A stretch of DNA of 21,071 nucleotides from a virus, in the IMG/VR virus record IMGVR_UViG_3300005613_000480, positions 1 through 21,071 of that record; one strand, given 5' to 3'. The notes under the pieces were generated by a model, which saw only the letters and a list, made by a program, of their open reading frames with translations, ran no database searches and was not told the origin of the DNA. Below are positions 1 to 11,118 of the stretch, one piece after another. The stretch's first letter is position 1. Every line of letters starts with the position of its first letter. The position numbers and the translations under genes are program-made.

Positions 1-26
1 TTATTAAATAAATCTAAACCTGTCAT
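1..26 (-). CDS. 5' end of an unidentified gene (partial)
   Basis: The minus strand has ATG at 24-26 and continues as MTGLDLFN before leaving the window. A strong Shine-Dalgarno sequence (AAGGAGG, 32-38) lies five to six bases upstream, and a sigma70-like promoter lies about 65 bases further up. Eight residues are too few to name a product. The neighbours suggest a gene read after the virion module. Confidence 0.6.
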
Positions 27-160: not shown

Positions 161-748
161 TTACAGATTTTTGCTTGGAATTTGGATATGAGCCAAAACT
201 TTTCCTTTATTAGGACCTTCTTTAATTGTGTATCCAGTAGTACCATTTCCATTAATTTCTACTTCTTTTCTACTTTTTAATAATACTTTTTCTTTGGCTT
301 GTTTTTCTTTTTGATTATAATTTTGTGCAACTAAATCTTTTAATCTATCTTTATATACATGATAGCCACCACCAACATCCGTTAAATCATTTTCTCTATC
401 TAAAAATTTATAATCTATTTTTGTAATTTCAAAATCTCTTTGTATTAATCTACAAATTTGTTCTGGATCAAATTCACCACAAGAGTATACATCAAATTGC
501 ATTAACGCTGGAGATGGTTCATCCCAAACATGCATCACAATATGAGAAGTTTCTATAATGGCTGCTCCTGTAATTCCTCTATTTCCTGGTACATCATGAT
601 AGATAACATAAGGACCCATCAATACTTTCATATTAATATATTTAATAAAATCTTCTAACCATTTTGTTAAAAACTCAGGATTCATAGGTGGGCTGATTGC
701 TTCAGCACGAACAATAAGATGTTTATGTACAAGTATTTCTTTCGCCAT
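161..748 (-). CDS. speD: SpeD-family S-adenosylmethionine decarboxylase-like proenzyme
   Basis: This is a pyruvoyl-dependent decarboxylase of the bacterial AdoMet decarboxylase fold, which would make decarboxylated AdoMet, the aminopropyl donor for spermidine. The family core is clear: S68-H69 begins SHIVMHVWDE, and D86-V-Y-S-C-G follows. By comparison with the Thermotoga-type enzyme, S68 is the self-cleavage serine that becomes pyruvoyl, H73 the processing histidine and C90 the catalytic acid. W75 and E77 match family active-site positions. The residue before the cleavage serine is Thr rather than the usual Glu, and two extra residues lie between H73 and C90. At 195 aa it is longer than the roughly 120-130-aa short form; residues from about 125 on are a lysine-rich extension ending in a short beta-like segment. 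It is last in the virion transcript. Related pyruvoyl ornithine or arginine decarboxylases evolved from SpeD, so the substrate is not certain. Confidence 0.85.
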   Translation of the reverse strand: MAKEILVHKHLIVRAEAISPPMNPEFLTKWLEDFIKYINMKVLMGPYVIYHDVPGNRGITGAAIIETSHIVMHVWDEPSPALMQFDVYSCGEFDPEQICRLIQRDFEITKIDYKFLDRENDLTDVGGGYHVYKDRLKDLVAQNYNQKEKQAKEKVLLKSRKEVEINGNGTTGYTIKEGPNKGKVLAHIQIPSKNL

Positions 749-759
749 ATATTTCTTCT

Positions 760-1017
760 TTATTTAAAACTCATTAAACCAATAATGGCAATCACTAAAG
801 CTGATAATCCACCTACTACCCACCAGGTAGTAGTATTAAAATTTCTATCTAATTTTTGATGTAAATTAACAATATGACCTTCAAATTTATCTAATTTACC
901 TTCTACTCTACAAATATCTTTAGCAAATTCTTCATGACCTTTTTTTAAACCCTCTATGTGACCATAGATAGCTATAATATGTTCGCCTTCAGTTTCTGGT
1001 GTTTTGCCATTTGCCAT
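760..1017 (-). CDS. Small coiled-coil, single-membrane-segment protein (XhlA/holin-like)
   Basis: An 85-residue protein with a polar helical region at about 10-60 that can form a coiled coil, then a hydrophobic segment at about 65-83 (WWVVGGLSALVIAIIGLM) and a short Ser-Phe-Lys tail. This layout is typical of XhlA-type haemolysin/holin-accessory proteins and of some phage membrane proteins near lysis genes. The start overlaps the stop of the large upstream gene as TAATG, so translation is probably coupled. No endolysin is adjacent, so a lysis role is inference; a membrane anchor for virion ejection is an alternative. Confidence 0.7.
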   Translation of the reverse strand: MANGKTPETEGEHIIAIYGHIEGLKKGHEEFAKDICRVEGKLDKFEGHIVNLHQKLDRNFNTTTWWVVGGLSALVIAIIGLMSFK

Positions 1018-4000
1018 TACGCTAATCCTCTTTGTCTTAATCTCATTTGTTTCTCATCTTCGCTTAAATACGAAGATTCCGCTGGTGTCAACCCCTGATT
1101 TAATTGACTTACTTGAACTGGAGGTGGCGAAATAACTTGTTGATTAGGCATTGGTTGAGGTGGTAATGGAGGCACCTGAGTCACTTGCCGCTCGCCGCTA
1201 GCTCCTGGGAGCGAGCTCTGTTGTTTAGGTAAATAGTCTTCTAATTTAATTTGTTTATTAAAGTCTTCTTCTAGATTCATTCTATACATATCTTGTGTCA
1301 TTTTTTGAATAGCTCTTAATGTCTCTCTATTAATTCCAGCTGGAATAGATAGATCTTCAAATTTTGCTCGTATGTCTTCTTCTTGTCTTTTTGCTTCTAC
1401 TAAAGTGGTAGCTGTAATTCCAAAAGGAATAAATCGATCTCTTTTAATTGCAGCATAATTTTTTAATTCAGCTCTTTTTGAAAACAATTGAACTAAATCT
1501 TGTTTCTTTGCTTCTAATATTTCTGCTGCATCAATTTTTCTTTTCAATGTTTTAAATTCTTTAAATCTTTGTTGATTCGCAATATAAAAACGAGATATAA
1601 TATCTTCCCCTGTTATAGAGCCTCCTCTTAAAATTTCCCCTGTAAATAAACTTCTAGTGTTTCGGAGTCCTTCTTTAAATTCATTAATTTTATAATTAAG
1701 TCCTTTAATAGGATCTAATTTAATTGGTCTAAGTCCCCAGAATCCTGCTAACTCATCATCTAATTCGTATTTTTCTCCACGTGGTCCTGGTAATTCTTGT
1801 GCAGCTAATCGTAATCGATCTAATTGTTTATAAGATAATGGAGCAACTTCTATTAATGCATACTTTGCAGCCTTACCTATTTTTTCTCCCCATGGAGCAT
1901 CTGGGTTCCAAAGTTTTCTTCCATCGGCTGTTACACCATCTCTAACTAATAAATTAGTCAATACGTTTGTCCAAATAGATTCATCCACATAAGGTCTTAC
2001 AAATCTTTCCAAACCTTTTGCTAAACCTTTTAATACTCCTTGTGTTAAAGGTGCATTAGAATCAAAAACATTTTCTGAATTAATTCCAGCAATGACAGAT
2101 TGCATAGGATTAACTACGGTATCGTAAACCATAAATCCAGATCCATCGATATACTTTAAACTTCCATCTTTATCTCTTATAACAAATAAAGTAGATGATT
2201 CTGAGAAACTAGGTACAAATTCTCTAGCTGCTGAAATCATAGCTGATGTAACTCCATATAGACCACCTACAACAGCAGAAGCTACTACCGGAGCAGTTGC
2301 AGTTGCAGTTGCAAAACCTGCTAATCTTCTGTAACCTATGTCTTTCAAAATAGGATTTCTTGCTTCTTTTAATCCTAATTGCATAATGTTAGCGGCAGTT
2401 CTTGTAACTTCAATAGGAAACGATATAAAGTTTCCAAATGGTAATCTTCTAACCGCTTGTCCAAATTCTCCCACATAAGAATAATTAGGTACAGTATTTC
2501 TTACAATGTTAGCAGCTTCTTTCATAATTTGTAATTCAGAAGGCATTTTTTTAATTAAACCTTTTTTAAAAGCATTTTGATAAGCTTTTGTATAAGAATC
2601 GTTCTCTCCTAAAAAATTAAATACTTTAAATATATCGTCTTCTGCTACATATAAATCGCCTGCTTTTTCATAAAGTTTTTTCATTCCTCTACCAAACTTT
2701 CCAAAAAATCTCATGTACACATCTCCGCCTCTTCCAATATCATCTAATAATCCTGCAATGTCTCTAGCTGTTGCAGAAGAACTAGTAACTTGTTCTTCTA
2801 ATAAAAATTTATACAAAGCCTGGTCTTTTGGTAAATTTCTATATAACAATTGTGGTTGGACAGTATTGAATGCTTGTTTAAAATTTCTAACAATATCTAC
2901 TGGATTTTTAAATAAATTCCCTGTTCCTAGAGAAAATTGTGCAGAAGTTAAAAAGTTTCTAGTATGAGTAAATGGACCTAAAATAGTTTTAGATATTTGA
3001 GTTATTCCTTTAGGAATAAGCACTAAATGTTGATACAATACTTCTTTAGATAATTTATCAAATAATATTTTCTCACTAAATTGAAGAGCATCTTTTAATT
3101 CTTTAGAAGTAAATTGTCCATTTAAAGGATTAGTATAAATAGATTCTCCCAAAGGAGATTTAATTTGTAAACCAGTGGGATTAGTTATAATTTCTTGACT
3201 AGGCAAATTTCTTAATGCTTCTAAACGAGTTGGATATATAGTAGCTCGTTGTCCTTTATCTATTAATTCTTTAGATTTTTGTAACACACCATTATAGAAT
3301 TCATCTTTAGCAGCCAAAGTACCTAAATCATTTATGGTGTTAATAATCGTATTTCTTAAATCTCTTTTTTGCCCATAGAATCGTTGAAAAGCTCTTAAAT
3401 CTTTTTCTGATTGAATTAACGTAGTGGGTTTAAATGCTCCGCCTTTAATATTATCTGCAATATTAATAAGTTGAGTTGCTTTATCGTCTAGCACACTTAA
3501 TACAGTTAAAGGAAATTCAGGTGTTTTAGTTAAATCATTAAATCGAATATTTTTATAAATATCTTCAATAATCGTATCTAAATCTGTCTCAGTTAAATTA
3601 ATTTTATTTTGTTTTGCATATCGTTGAAACACTCCTTTAACATCATTAATAACAGCATCCGTTGGTTTATAATTTAGCATAGGAAATATACTTTTATTTT
3701 CCATAATTTTATATTCGGAATTAAATATATTTCTCATTCTTTCACTCATAATTTGAGAAAATTCTTTATTCGCTGCATTTATATTTCCACCTTTAAACAA
3801 ACTATTTTTAAATACATTGAATTGTTCTCTAACTTTAAACATTTCTCCCACTAAATCTTTTCCTTGTTGTTTGGATATTCCAACTTCATCTAAAAAATTA
3901 TAAAATTGATTTAATTGTTTAGGTTCAAATCCTTTAAATACTACTTTACCACCTTGAATAACATCATCCGAAGATGTTAATAATTCATCTAGTCTTCCTA

Positions 4001-5156
4001 TGATTCGTTTCCAATTTTTATTTCCCGTAGATAATCCAGATTGTTTAGCAACGTTGTATAAAGTTTGATCTATATCTTTAATAAGATCCGTTGCTGTTAC
4101 TTGCCCTGCAGAAATTTTTCCTTCTACTTTTTTTATTCCTTCAAATAAATATTGTTCTTTTTTACCAGCAGGTCTAAATGGTTCCACCATGTATTTATTA
4201 ATTAATTGATCAATTTTTCTATCACTAAATTTTAATTCTCTTCCATGTTGTGCAATTTTTTTAGCCACTTTATTAATTCCATAAGCAATAGGAACAGAAA
4301 CAACCGCTCCTTCGGTTCCAAATTTAAATCGATTCCATAATCTTCTAGTAGCATCTTCATCAGAAGTAGATCTTTGATCTCTATCCAAAGCGCTTGGTCC
4401 TCCTAATACATCACCCCAAGTTCCAATATCTTCTACATCAGCCACCATTGCAGTTCCTGTTGCTCCTCCTAAAATAACAGCTGCATGTTTAGGTACCCCT
4501 GTTAATTTATTCATTTCTTTAGCTCTCATAATTGCTTTCGTAGTATTATTACTAGCTCTTGCTACTTTATTTAATTTAGCTGCATTAGAAAATTTATTGT
4601 ATATTTGTAATGCTTTATCTCCTACTTTTACTGCTCCTGCAGCGCCTACTCTTCCATAACCATATAATTGAGTTAAAGCAGAAGTTAGTTTTCCAACAGC
4701 AGAATCTTTAATAATATCTTCAGATCCTTGTTGTATTTTTCCAAATACAGTATTACTAAAATATTTTTCTAATTGTGCTACTTTTCCTTGGTCTACGGGT
4801 ATATTATCCTCCCCTAACGCATCCATAATTTCTGCAGTTAAAGAAGCAACTCCATATGGAATTTTAACTGTACCATCTACGACACCTCCAACAAAAGCAG
4901 TAAAAGGATCCACATCACCTAATGGTGTTAAATCTTCTTCCTTGACTCCCGCTACTCGCTCCGCGATTCTTCTTGCTGCTTTCCCGGTTGTTAAAAAACT
5001 ATCTCCTGCTAGTTCTACACCTTTAGGGCCAAACAATACATCCATGATGGGGGTATCGGGTCCTTTACGTTCTGGAATCTGTATAACTGGTTTTTCTTTC
5101 TCTGGCTCTTTTTCCGGAGTTAGATCAAACTCATCTGTGTAAAAATCTTCTGCCAT
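1017..5156 (-). CDS. Very large internal virion / DNA-ejection-like protein
   Basis: At 1379 residues this is the largest gene in the window. The N-terminus is acidic and disordered (residues 1-45). A long, mostly helical body follows, and the C-terminal 75 residues are Pro/Gln-rich and disordered. A Gly/Ala-rich hydrophobic stretch around residues 940-975 (AGFATATATAPVVASAVVGG) could enter a membrane. Just before it lies a PFGNFISFP segment near residue 910, a pattern I associate with large marine podovirus virion proteins. Size and position, last of four low-complexity virion genes, match the ejected core proteins of podoviruses (compare T7 gp16 in role, not sequence). No lytic transglycosylase or peptidase motif is evident. 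The start at 5156 follows an AAGGAAA ribosome site. Confidence 0.65.
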   Translation of the reverse strand: MAEDFYTDEFDLTPEKEPEKEKPVIQIPERKGPDTPIMDVLFGPKGVELAGDSFLTTGKAARRIAERVAGVKEEDLTPLGDVDPFTAFVGGVVDGTVKIPYGVASLTAEIMDALGEDNIPVDQGKVAQLEKYFSNTVFGKIQQGSEDIIKDSAVGKLTSALTQLYGYGRVGAAGAVKVGDKALQIYNKFSNAAKLNKVARASNNTTKAIMRAKEMNKLTGVPKHAAVILGGATGTAMVADVEDIGTWGDVLGGPSALDRDQRSTSDEDATRRLWNRFKFGTEGAVVSVPIAYGINKVAKKIAQHGRELKFSDRKIDQLINKYMVEPFRPAGKKEQYLFEGIKKVEGKISAGQVTATDLIKDIDQTLYNVAKQSGLSTGNKNWKRIIGRLDELLTSSDDVIQGGKVVFKGFEPKQLNQFYNFLDEVGISKQQGKDLVGEMFKVREQFNVFKNSLFKGGNINAANKEFSQIMSERMRNIFNSEYKIMENKSIFPMLNYKPTDAVINDVKGVFQRYAKQNKINLTETDLDTIIEDIYKNIRFNDLTKTPEFPLTVLSVLDDKATQLINIADNIKGGAFKPTTLIQSEKDLRAFQRFYGQKRDLRNTIINTINDLGTLAAKDEFYNGVLQKSKELIDKGQRATIYPTRLEALRNLPSQEIITNPTGLQIKSPLGESIYTNPLNGQFTSKELKDALQFSEKILFDKLSKEVLYQHLVLIPKGITQISKTILGPFTHTRNFLTSAQFSLGTGNLFKNPVDIVRNFKQAFNTVQPQLLYRNLPKDQALYKFLLEEQVTSSSATARDIAGLLDDIGRGGDVYMRFFGKFGRGMKKLYEKAGDLYVAEDDIFKVFNFLGENDSYTKAYQNAFKKGLIKKMPSELQIMKEAANIVRNTVPNYSYVGEFGQAVRRLPFGNFISFPIEVTRTAANIMQLGLKEARNPILKDIGYRRLAGFATATATAPVVASAVVGGLYGVTSAMISAAREFVPSFSESSTLFVIRDKDGSLKYIDGSGFMVYDTVVNPMQSVIAGINSENVFDSNAPLTQGVLKGLAKGLERFVRPYVDESIWTNVLTNLLVRDGVTADGRKLWNPDAPWGEKIGKAAKYALIEVAPLSYKQLDRLRLAAQELPGPRGEKYELDDELAGFWGLRPIKLDPIKGLNYKINEFKEGLRNTRSLFTGEILRGGSITGEDIISRFYIANQQRFKEFKTLKRKIDAAEILEAKKQDLVQLFSKRAELKNYAAIKRDRFIPFGITATTLVEAKRQEEDIRAKFEDLSIPAGINRETLRAIQKMTQDMYRMNLEEDFNKQIKLEDYLPKQQSSLPGASGERQVTQVPPLPPQPMPNQQVISPPPVQVSQLNQGLTPAESSYLSEDEKQMRLRQRGLA
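1190..1216. repeat. GC-rich nested inverted repeat inside the large ejection-like gene
   Basis: Arms GCTCGC (1190-1195) and GCGAGC (1211-1216) are perfect complements. Between them GCTCC (1201-1205) and GGAGC (1208-1212) form an alternative short hairpin. The patch is markedly richer in G+C than the surrounding coding DNA and falls in the disordered C-terminal tail (near residues SLPGASGERQV), where sequence constraint should be low. Confidence 0.5.
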
Positions 5157-9311: not shown

Positions 9312-10190
9312 TTACTTGGTTTTTATATCTTCGTCAACGTTTTTGATAGACTCTAAATCATCTTTTAAACGTCCAGTATACTTATATTCACCCACATGAC
9401 TAATAAAATCGTCACTAATTAGTACATGACATTTACCACCTAATTCACTCCATCTTATACAGAAACCAAAATCCTCTCCGTAATATCGCTTAGTTTCTTG
9501 GTCATGATAAGTATCAAAAAAATTATAAAAATAAGGTTTATCATTGGCTACACCATTGACAATAGTAGGTTGACTGATCTTTAAATGAGGTAATTTCTCC
9601 ATCATGGTTTCAAATACCGATCGTTTAATTAACATACATCCAGTAGGAGCATGAGTAACTTCTGCAACTTCATCATATACTTCAAAAGCATGTCTGTTTT
9701 CTATTTTGATAGGCCAAGTAAAACCAAATCTACAATATTCTTTTGGATCTTTAATATTTCTATGTTCTATTTTCTTTTGTATCTTTTCCCAATTAATATC
9801 TTTTAAAGGATAAGGATAGGCAATAATATCTTTATCTGCTTTTATCATTTTCATGATAGTGCTAAATTCAAAATCAATATCAGAATCAATAAACAATAAA
9901 AAATCATATTTAACTTTTTCTTCAAAAAAAGCATTGACACATAAATTTCTTCCTTGTGTAACTAACGAAGATTTTAACATGGTAAAACTAACCATAATAT
10001 TATTCATCAAACATTGTTGTTGAAATTTTAATACTGCTTGTGTGTAATGCATAGATACATCACTATGACATGGAGTACAAACCATGATGGTACATTTAGG
10101 TTGATGACCTATATTGATTTCCGTTACTTTATTTTCTTTAATGGTTTGATAAGTATCTTCATTAAACCATATGGGTTTATTATTTTGCAT
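9312..10190 (-). CDS. GT-A fold glycosyltransferase-like protein
   Basis: 292 residues. After an N-terminal lead-in, a beta strand at 33-39 (CTIMVCT) opens a Rossmann-like domain. QGRNLCVNAF at 79-88 resembles the segment preceding the metal site in such enzymes. FLLFIDSDIDF (98-108) carries the DxD motif (D102, D104) that binds Mn and the nucleotide sugar in GT-A glycosyltransferases. The C-terminal part (ACMLIKRSVF-like and EDFGFCIRW segments) fits acceptor-side elements of GT2-related enzymes; an acidic ED dyad is present in EDFGF. AAGGAG precedes the start, which overlaps the upstream glycosyltransferase by 11 bases. It may glycosylate virion proteins or modify host surface sugars. Donor and acceptor are unknown. 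Confidence 0.75.
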   Translation of the reverse strand: MQNNKPIWFNEDTYQTIKENKVTEINIGHQPKCTIMVCTPCHSDVSMHYTQAVLKFQQQCLMNNIMVSFTMLKSSLVTQGRNLCVNAFFEEKVKYDFLLFIDSDIDFEFSTIMKMIKADKDIIAYPYPLKDINWEKIQKKIEHRNIKDPKEYCRFGFTWPIKIENRHAFEVYDEVAEVTHAPTGCMLIKRSVFETMMEKLPHLKISQPTIVNGVANDKPYFYNFFDTYHDQETKRYYGEDFGFCIRWSELGGKCHVLISDDFISHVGEYKYTGRLKDDLESIKNVDEDIKTK

Positions 10191-11118
10191 GTTGTATTGC
10201 TCCTTGTAAAAATACAGTCCAAGAACTTGCTTGCTTGTTCCAGTTATAATAGCGATTCGTATATTCAGATTGAAATCGTAGATGATCTTGTATAGAGGAA
10301 TGATCTAAATGTTCCGCTGCTGCATGAATGCCATATGCAAATCGTTTAGCTAAATTTTTATAATCATTGGAATAAGGAATATACATTGGAAATTCCGCAC
10401 CCGTTTCAAATAAAGCTCCATAATCGGTGGTAATACAATACAGTCCAGCAGCCATAGATTCTAGCAGCGAGATGCACGATGTTTCTTCCCAGATACTAGG
10501 ATACACATACATTTTATAATCTTGTAAATGTTCTAAAATATATTCATTCGATTTATATCCAATGTAATTTACATTCGGTAATTGTTTTGCTTGATCATAC
10601 AATTCTTGATAATGTTTATCATTAGCTTGCGCAAAATCTTTGCCATACACTTCACAAGAAGAATAGACATCTAAAGTTATCAAAGGATTTTTGACTAGTT
10701 GCATGGCAGCTAGTAAAACATTTAAACCTCTCCACGGAGTATTTTGATGAATAATTTTAATAGGCTCCCCTTTTACATAAGGTTGGGTAGGTTGTATTTT
10801 TACAATTCCATTTTTAATTACCGCGCATTGTTCTGTCGGTAATCCATACATCATTCTAAATTTTTCATAATTCCAATGCGAATTAAAAACATACCAATCA
10901 TATTTTTTATGATTTGATTTATCTTTAAACCAAGGTGCTAGATTCGGTTGATCATAAGAATTCTTTTGCCAAAGAATATTGACTTTCGTAGGATGTAAGG
11001 GAATTTTTTCTGGAACGGAAGTTGTTATTTGTACTTGATCTAATAATTTTGCATCTACATGTTTGTGCAAAAAACCAAGTTGTAATTCTGTGCCGCCTTT
11101 AGGATGTTGGTTTGTCAT
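10180..11118 (-). CDS. GT-B glycosyltransferase (GT4-like), short N-terminus
   Basis: 312 residues. KGGTE at 7-11 matches the glycine-rich N-terminal loop of GT4 enzymes, but the first beta strand normally ahead of it is missing, so the protein starts almost at the loop. YVFNSHW (76-82) and KNGI (102-105) follow the GT-B pattern. The C-terminal domain has the donor-binding EX7E motif, E212 to E220 (EETSCISLLESMAAG), followed by TDYGALFE. The start at 11118 lies within the upstream 77-aa gene (20-bp overlap), so a longer form in this frame would have to overlap it further. It is paired with a GT-A enzyme, and the two probably act in sequence on one glycan. The target is not evident. Confidence 0.8.
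   Translation of the reverse strand: MTNQHPKGGTELQLGFLHKHVDAKLLDQVQITTSVPEKIPLHPTKVNILWQKNSYDQPNLAPWFKDKSNHKKYDWYVFNSHWNYEKFRMMYGLPTEQCAVIKNGIVKIQPTQPYVKGEPIKIIHQNTPWRGLNVLLAAMQLVKNPLITLDVYSSCEVYGKDFAQANDKHYQELYDQAKQLPNVNYIGYKSNEYILEHLQDYKMYVYPSIWEETSCISLLESMAAGLYCITTDYGALFETGAEFPMYIPYSNDYKNLAKRFAYGIHAAAEHLDHSSIQDHLRFQSEYTNRYYNWNKQASSWTVFLQGAIQHAK

Follow-up and report, generated by a model that had tools for sequence, protein, structure and literature searches.

A pelagiphage SpeD homologue, probably an arginine decarboxylase, joined in frame to a pelagiphage mini-protein

The locus and its genomic setting

The window analysed here is the whole stretch of 21,071 nt formed by positions 1 to 21,071 of the IMG/VR record IMGVR_UViG_3300005613_000480, and the fusion gene is numbered therein. 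This gene encodes a protein of 195 amino acids in which a homologue of SpeD is followed by a small phage protein (Table 1). The ORF is far beyond what chance would produce, because 321 relatives were found in IMG/VR and dN/dS against close relatives is low, at ~0.1 for the SpeD core and ~0.15-0.3 for the C-terminal part, which evolves faster than the core.

Table 1. Features of the fusion gene and of its neighbours (positions in the window)
Feature	Positions	Strand	Basis
Start of next gene (MTGLDLFN...), probably Hsp20; leaves the window	1..26	-	Preceded by AAGGAGG
SpeD homologue fused to phrog_32989-type mini-protein, 195 aa	161..748	-	ORF, PF02675, phrog matches, AlphaFold2
SpeD core, residues 1-125	374..748	-	PF02675 match to residues 22-118, AlphaFold2, Foldseek
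Predicted beta chain, residues 1-67, C-terminal end ...Ile-Glu-Thr67	548..748	-	Alignment with T. maritima SpeD; cleavage predicted
Codon of Ser68, where cleavage is predicted and the pyruvoyl group would arise	545..547	-	Ser in 54/54 clade members
Fused phrog_32989 mini-protein forming the C-terminal extension (residues 133-195)	164..352	-	Profile match, alignment with standalone ORFs, AlphaFold2
Conserved motif RKEVEINGNGTTGYTIKEGPNKG, residues 160-182	203..271	-	Invariant positions in two alignments
85-aa upstream gene with a membrane segment at the C-terminus and weak similarity to XhlA	760..1017	-	phrog_1193, E 0.0012; Pfam XhlA below cut-off
Putative structural protein, 1379 aa, upstream	1017..5156	-	Match to HTVC027P

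The 1379-aa protein is 30.6% identical, over 95% of its length, to a putative structural protein of Pelagibacter phage HTVC027P, and a 640-aa virion protein of the window shows 67.6% identity to HTVC027P and 60% to HTVC023P. In HTVC027P the structural protein is followed by a small gene and a convergent helicase gene. The relatives of the window have a gene similar to the XhlA-like one at the same place and carry SpeD and usually Hsp20 between it and the convergent helicase gene (Hsp20 and helicase identified by Pfam). In one of them (L001), a protein starting with MTGLDLINKF... lies at the same distance from SpeD and matches Hsp20 (PF00011, E 1e-15). By these sequence matches, the phage is a pelagiphage of the HTVC023P type, one of the most abundant phage types of the ocean (PMC12753301), in which the SpeD gene is flanked by virion genes on one side and by a probable Hsp20 gene on the other. 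The preliminary description of this DNA had placed the gene at the end of the virion operon; it does lie behind the virion genes and near the end of the operon, but it is not the last gene, because the probable Hsp20 start follows on the same strand.

Late expression of the fusion gene, which the preliminary description linked to polyamine supply for DNA packaging or for the end of infection, can only be inferred, and a role in packaging found no support. Promoter-like sites near the gene were fewer than in shuffled sequences, and no terminator-like site was found near it on its strand. In HTVC027P, genes of differing timing have a mosaic arrangement (PMC12753301).

Several other features of these loci were observed. 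Among the virion genes, the window encodes a group 1 glycosyltransferase (10180-11118) and a phrog_1574 protein (9312-10190). In three relatives (L007 5206-5916, L029 and L059), a PD-(D/E)XK nuclease-like gene, for which the Pfam match comes from L007, directly precedes SpeD. A contig filed as a Thermoplasmatales archaeon MAG (L166) shows the phage order of XhlA-like gene, SpeD, Hsp20-like gene and convergent helicase, and is probably viral.

The SpeD core and its clade

The AdoMet_dc profile PF02675 matches residues 22-118 with an E-value of 1.1e-16, above its curated cut-off, and phrog_3125 matches as well (E 4.3e-18), while the score for TIGR03330, the AdoMet decarboxylase equivalog, is 53.0 bits against a cut-off of 75.65. 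Residues were referred to Thermotoga maritima SpeD (S63/H68/C83), whose solved chains are split at 62/63. In this alignment S68, H73 and C90 of the window protein form the Ser/His/Cys trio, W75 corresponds to W70, E77 to E72 and Thr67 to E62, with two additional residues between Ser and Cys. The preliminary description had listed all of these features, together with about 70 extra C-terminal residues, and each was found. It had also proposed a structure prediction and a phylogeny. The AlphaFold2 model of the core has a pLDDT of ~95, and a Foldseek search of the PDB with this model returned T. maritima SpeD first (1tlu, E 2.6e-5). Sequence profile, fold and catalytic trio all place the protein in the SpeD fold superfamily (class 1b). 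These data support, at the level of sequence, a SpeD homologue with the full residue set for self-processing; such an enzyme would cut itself before Ser68, which would thereby be converted into the pyruvoyl group.

When 54 clade members were aligned and compared with five AdoMetDC-type sequences, Thr67, Ser68, His73, Trp75, Pro80, Gln84, Tyr88 and Cys90 proved invariant in the clade. Thr67, Pro80 and Gln84 occur in none of the five AdoMetDC-type sequences, and Tyr88 in one. The two-residue insertion before Cys90 is common to all 54, including the SpeD of Pelagibacter phage HTVC201P, and this protein also shares Asp76, which stands where the HTWPE motif has Pro. Position 85 is Phe in nearly all members of the window's phage clade and Leu in HTVC201P and the bacterial homologues. 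Thr67 and the insertion had been singled out as oddities; both are real but neither is private to this protein. They can be ruled out as signs of damage, since the whole clade has them and so does an enzyme with measured activity: HTVC201P SpeD is active with Thr before the cleavage Ser, so Thr67 need not preclude activity, and the earlier expectation that a change at this position need not block processing is borne out.

Two trees were built, of 66 and 70 rows, from short alignments that left many forks unresolved; phage ornithine decarboxylases with published assays (ATV46410, QMP83838 and others) were not retrieved by the searches and are absent from both. In these trees the window belongs to a phage clade nested within a larger clade with HTVC201P and marine bacterial homologues. 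The clade joining the window and HTVC201P has support of 94/87 in one tree and 92/78 in the other, rising to 100/96 when L199 is added, and it is set apart (100/99) from the enzymes with assayed AdoMet decarboxylase activity, those of T. maritima and Vampirovibrio (SpeD1). The proposed phylogeny thus groups the window with HTVC201P, with the pyruvoyl Ser kept in all 54 aligned members.

A genome scan showed that SAR11, Thioglobus, HIMB59 and related marine bacteria also encode homologues, several of which lie on contigs of more than 100 kb among ordinary chromosomal neighbours. These same-clade chromosomal genes (L168-L194), mostly in genomes without spermidine synthase, are a candidate origin of the phage gene. 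No substrate was indicated by the genes that flank the bacterial homologues.

Many phages carry the mini-protein without SpeD, which could suggest that selection acts on the mini-protein and that the SpeD part is a vestigial carrier. This is highly improbable, given a core dN/dS of ~0.1, slower change in the core than in the C-terminal part, and retention of S68, H73 and C90 in 54/54 clade members.

Substrate of the decarboxylase

Based on sequence comparison, the window protein is probably a self-processing pyruvoyl-dependent arginine decarboxylase that would supply agmatine to host enzymes. Arginine is preferred over AdoMet because of the clade, the signature residues and the company that the relatives keep. 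HTVC201P SpeD was shown to decarboxylate arginine with a kcat/Km of 290 per M per s and to have no activity on ornithine or lysine, and a speD mutant of E. coli did not regain spermidine with it (PMC9992855). The suspicion raised in the preliminary description, that the protein could act on arginine or ornithine, is supported. After self-processing, the enzyme would most likely convert L-arginine, rather than S-adenosylmethionine, into agmatine, from which an agmatinase or agmatine deiminase of the SAR11-type host could produce putrescine and further polyamines in the infected cell.

A true S-adenosylmethionine decarboxylase, providing the aminopropyl donor for spermidine, would fit the fold, the catalytic residues, W75 and E77, but is quite unlikely. 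The retention of W75 and E77 carries no weight as a sign of AdoMet and is ruled out as proof, since the arginine decarboxylase HTVC201P SpeD has both residues. Moreover, the window protein lies under the TIGR03330 cut-off, and HTVC201P SpeD, the nearest assayed relative, is without AdoMet decarboxylase activity. A Pro invariant in true AdoMetDCs is reportedly lost in arginine decarboxylases (PMC10407285). We take this to be the Pro of HTWPE, which is Asp76 in the window, with the caveat that this Pro is also missing from phiN3 SpeD, for which true AdoMet decarboxylase activity has been reported.

It was also proposed that a SpeD found without spermidine synthase is suspect as an AdoMet decarboxylase (PMC10407285). 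Neither spermidine synthase nor agmatinase was found in 17 phage relatives (records of 25-60 kb, some of them fragments). Polyamine enzymes were also sought in 24 homologue-bearing genomes of marine bacteria, which are incomplete. Each has a single SpeD, and 23 have no full-length spermidine synthase; the full-length match occurs in one genome, and two more genomes have matches above the family cut-off that are weaker and partial. Both observations argue against AdoMet. The arginase/agmatinase family is present in 17 of the 24 and the agmatine deiminase family in 14, with one or both in every genome. These families are consistent with arginine decarboxylation but do not prove it, because they are non-specific and common and because PLP-type decarboxylases occur in most of the genomes (18/24).

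The main rival substrate is ornithine, which a pyruvoyl-dependent ornithine decarboxylase (SpeDC) would turn directly into putrescine. The 42% identity to HTVC201P SpeD over the core leaves room for a change of substrate, and Leu85 of that enzyme is replaced by Phe in the window protein and in nearly all of its phage clade. Freshwater phages described as similar to HTVC201P have SpeD homologues of which several decarboxylate ornithine and one acts on both substrates (PMC9992855), and the SpeDC clade of another study includes HTVC201P (PMC10407285). However, the window protein has only one (Thr67) of the four SpeDC diagnostics (Gln, Thr, Phe and Tyr), with the positions deduced through two CPR sequences (L223/L224), a mapping under which phiN3 SpeD, reported as an AdoMetDC, fits three of the four. 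Ornithine as the substrate of the window protein is considered unlikely.

Gene finders call these proteins AdoMet decarboxylases, while those of HTVC023P-type pelagiphages are probably arginine decarboxylases. More distant SpeD-like sequences were noted in the course of the searches. The record of 'Microcystis phage MaAM05' (loci L161, MW495066.1, 246755-250024, and L198) contains a speD-speD-speE-speB cluster nearly identical to that of Vampirovibrio chlorellavorus, and is probably bacterial sequence misfiled as phage. In CPR bacteria (L230, L235, L237-L244), ORFs of ~440-470 aa end in a diverged SpeD-like domain, mostly with Asn for the His after the Ser (SNSNLVIHTWPE). Four clostridial loci (L205, L206, L208 and L209) encode tandem SpeD domains, the first seemingly without the cleavage Ser and the Cys.

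The fused mini-protein and comparison with known systems

The C-terminal extension was correctly recognised in the preliminary description as lying outside the core, but it is a separate phage mini-protein fused to it: the last 63 residues are a complete mini-protein joined in frame. The profile of phrog_32989 matches residues 146-184 with an E-value of 3.5e-12, over positions 13-52 of 54, and the extension aligns with standalone phage ORFs, which places it in this family. Its AlphaFold2 model, of moderate confidence (pLDDT ~78, pTM 0.37), shows a long helix and then a short hairpin. The extension is basic (pI ~9.9) and the SpeD core acidic (pI 5.0). No significant match to the mini-protein was found in Pfam, nor in the PDB either by sequence (best E 0.16) or by fold (best E 1.7).

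Standalone copies measure ~54-73 aa in nearly all cases, and SpeD is the only partner among the fused copies examined. When 50,697 phage records were searched with the copy from HTVC011P, the matches were 24 records of Pelagibacter phages and a single uncultured phage from the Mediterranean; phages with the mini-protein span podo-, sipho- and myo-types. Of 60 mini-protein genes that have a close neighbour, 30 are directly preceded by a gene for a small membrane protein, compared with 32% of small ORFs generally, and one of the membrane proteins examined is a GTA-type holin with three TM segments. In several pelagiphage-like contigs (L101, L107, L154 and others), the phrog_32989 gene adjoins that of phrog_33111, a membrane protein of 61 aa.

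In several relatives SpeD ends at ~126-135 residues and an ORF of its own encodes the extension, either close to SpeD or, in three loci, ~5 kb away, sometimes with a small membrane-protein gene in between; this ORF is upstream of SpeD in L116 and L079. L078, which seemed to have SpeD only, was found by profile search to carry the mini-protein gene in the same record. Among distinct loci, 59 are fused, eight have both genes within 1 kb and three have them ~5 kb apart, in a collection made with the fused query, which over-represents the fused state. The tree requires at least five switches between fused and separate genes and the linkers vary in length and sequence, which together indicate repeated gain or loss of the fusion. 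However, only one of six SpeD-bearing reference phages (five isolates and one uncultured) has the mini-protein, so a general linkage with SpeD is ruled out and the link holds for the window clade only.

After self-cleavage, the alpha chain would retain the mini-protein as a basic appendage, and one may guess that it places or regulates the enzyme, or merely rides along. A more specific and rather doubtful suggestion is that it acts as an adaptor across podo-, sipho- and myo-type Pelagibacter phages, delivering the arginine decarboxylase to nucleic acid, to the membrane or to a lysis complex, or switching the enzyme. If so, polyamine synthesis would be tied by fusion to a pelagiphage-specific function. 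The fusion provides a first lead on a mini-protein seemingly special to SAR11 phages.

No report of the fusion was found in the literature searched, which was covered in part, so this absence does not prove that it is new. A survey of HTVC023P-type phages mentions no decarboxylase in its main text (PMC9599517). In a paper on SpeD homologues, the fusions described are of SpeD with SpeD only (PMC10407285). The locus is read as encoding a SpeD-derived pelagiphage decarboxylase, probably SpeDA, joined to a pelagiphage mini-protein; the enzyme type is already known, and its joining to the mini-protein is not described in the literature searched.

The closest assayed system is HTVC201P SpeD (AXH71538; SpeDA, PMC9992855), which shares with the window the HKH N-terminus, the Glu-Thr-Ser site, WDE, Pro80/Gln84/Tyr88 and the insertion, but differs at two positions, with Leu85 for Phe85 and Gln63 for Ala63 of the window. 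Unlike the window protein, it is 122 aa long without an extension, and its gene lies among those of DNA polymerase, exonuclease and ribonucleotide reductase, whereas the window copy lies by virion genes. HTVC201P also has the mini-protein, unlinked to its SpeD. The chromosomal homologues of SAR11, Thioglobus and HIMB59 are closer (47-56% identity, with the same signature residues) but are unfused single-domain ORFs of 124-138 aa, and no published assay of them was found in the literature searched.

The phrog_32989 mini-proteins of HTVC011P, HTVC019P, HTVC027P, HTVC201P and Kolga resemble the window extension over most of their length and share with it the motif RKEVxIxxNGTxGYxIKxG, but these pelagiphage proteins are standalone (~54-65 aa); in several podophages their genes lie near small membrane-protein and terminase genes. 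T. maritima SpeD (1TLU, 3IWB), a class 1b AdoMet decarboxylase, has the same fold and Ser/His/Cys trio at 16% identity in a structural match, and differs by Glu before the Ser, by HTWPE and by two fewer residues before the Cys. Finally, the bacterial SpeD-SpeDC fusions (PMC10407285) also hold a SpeD domain within a larger polypeptide, with the difference that the partner is a second SpeD domain, whereas in the window it is an unrelated phage mini-protein.
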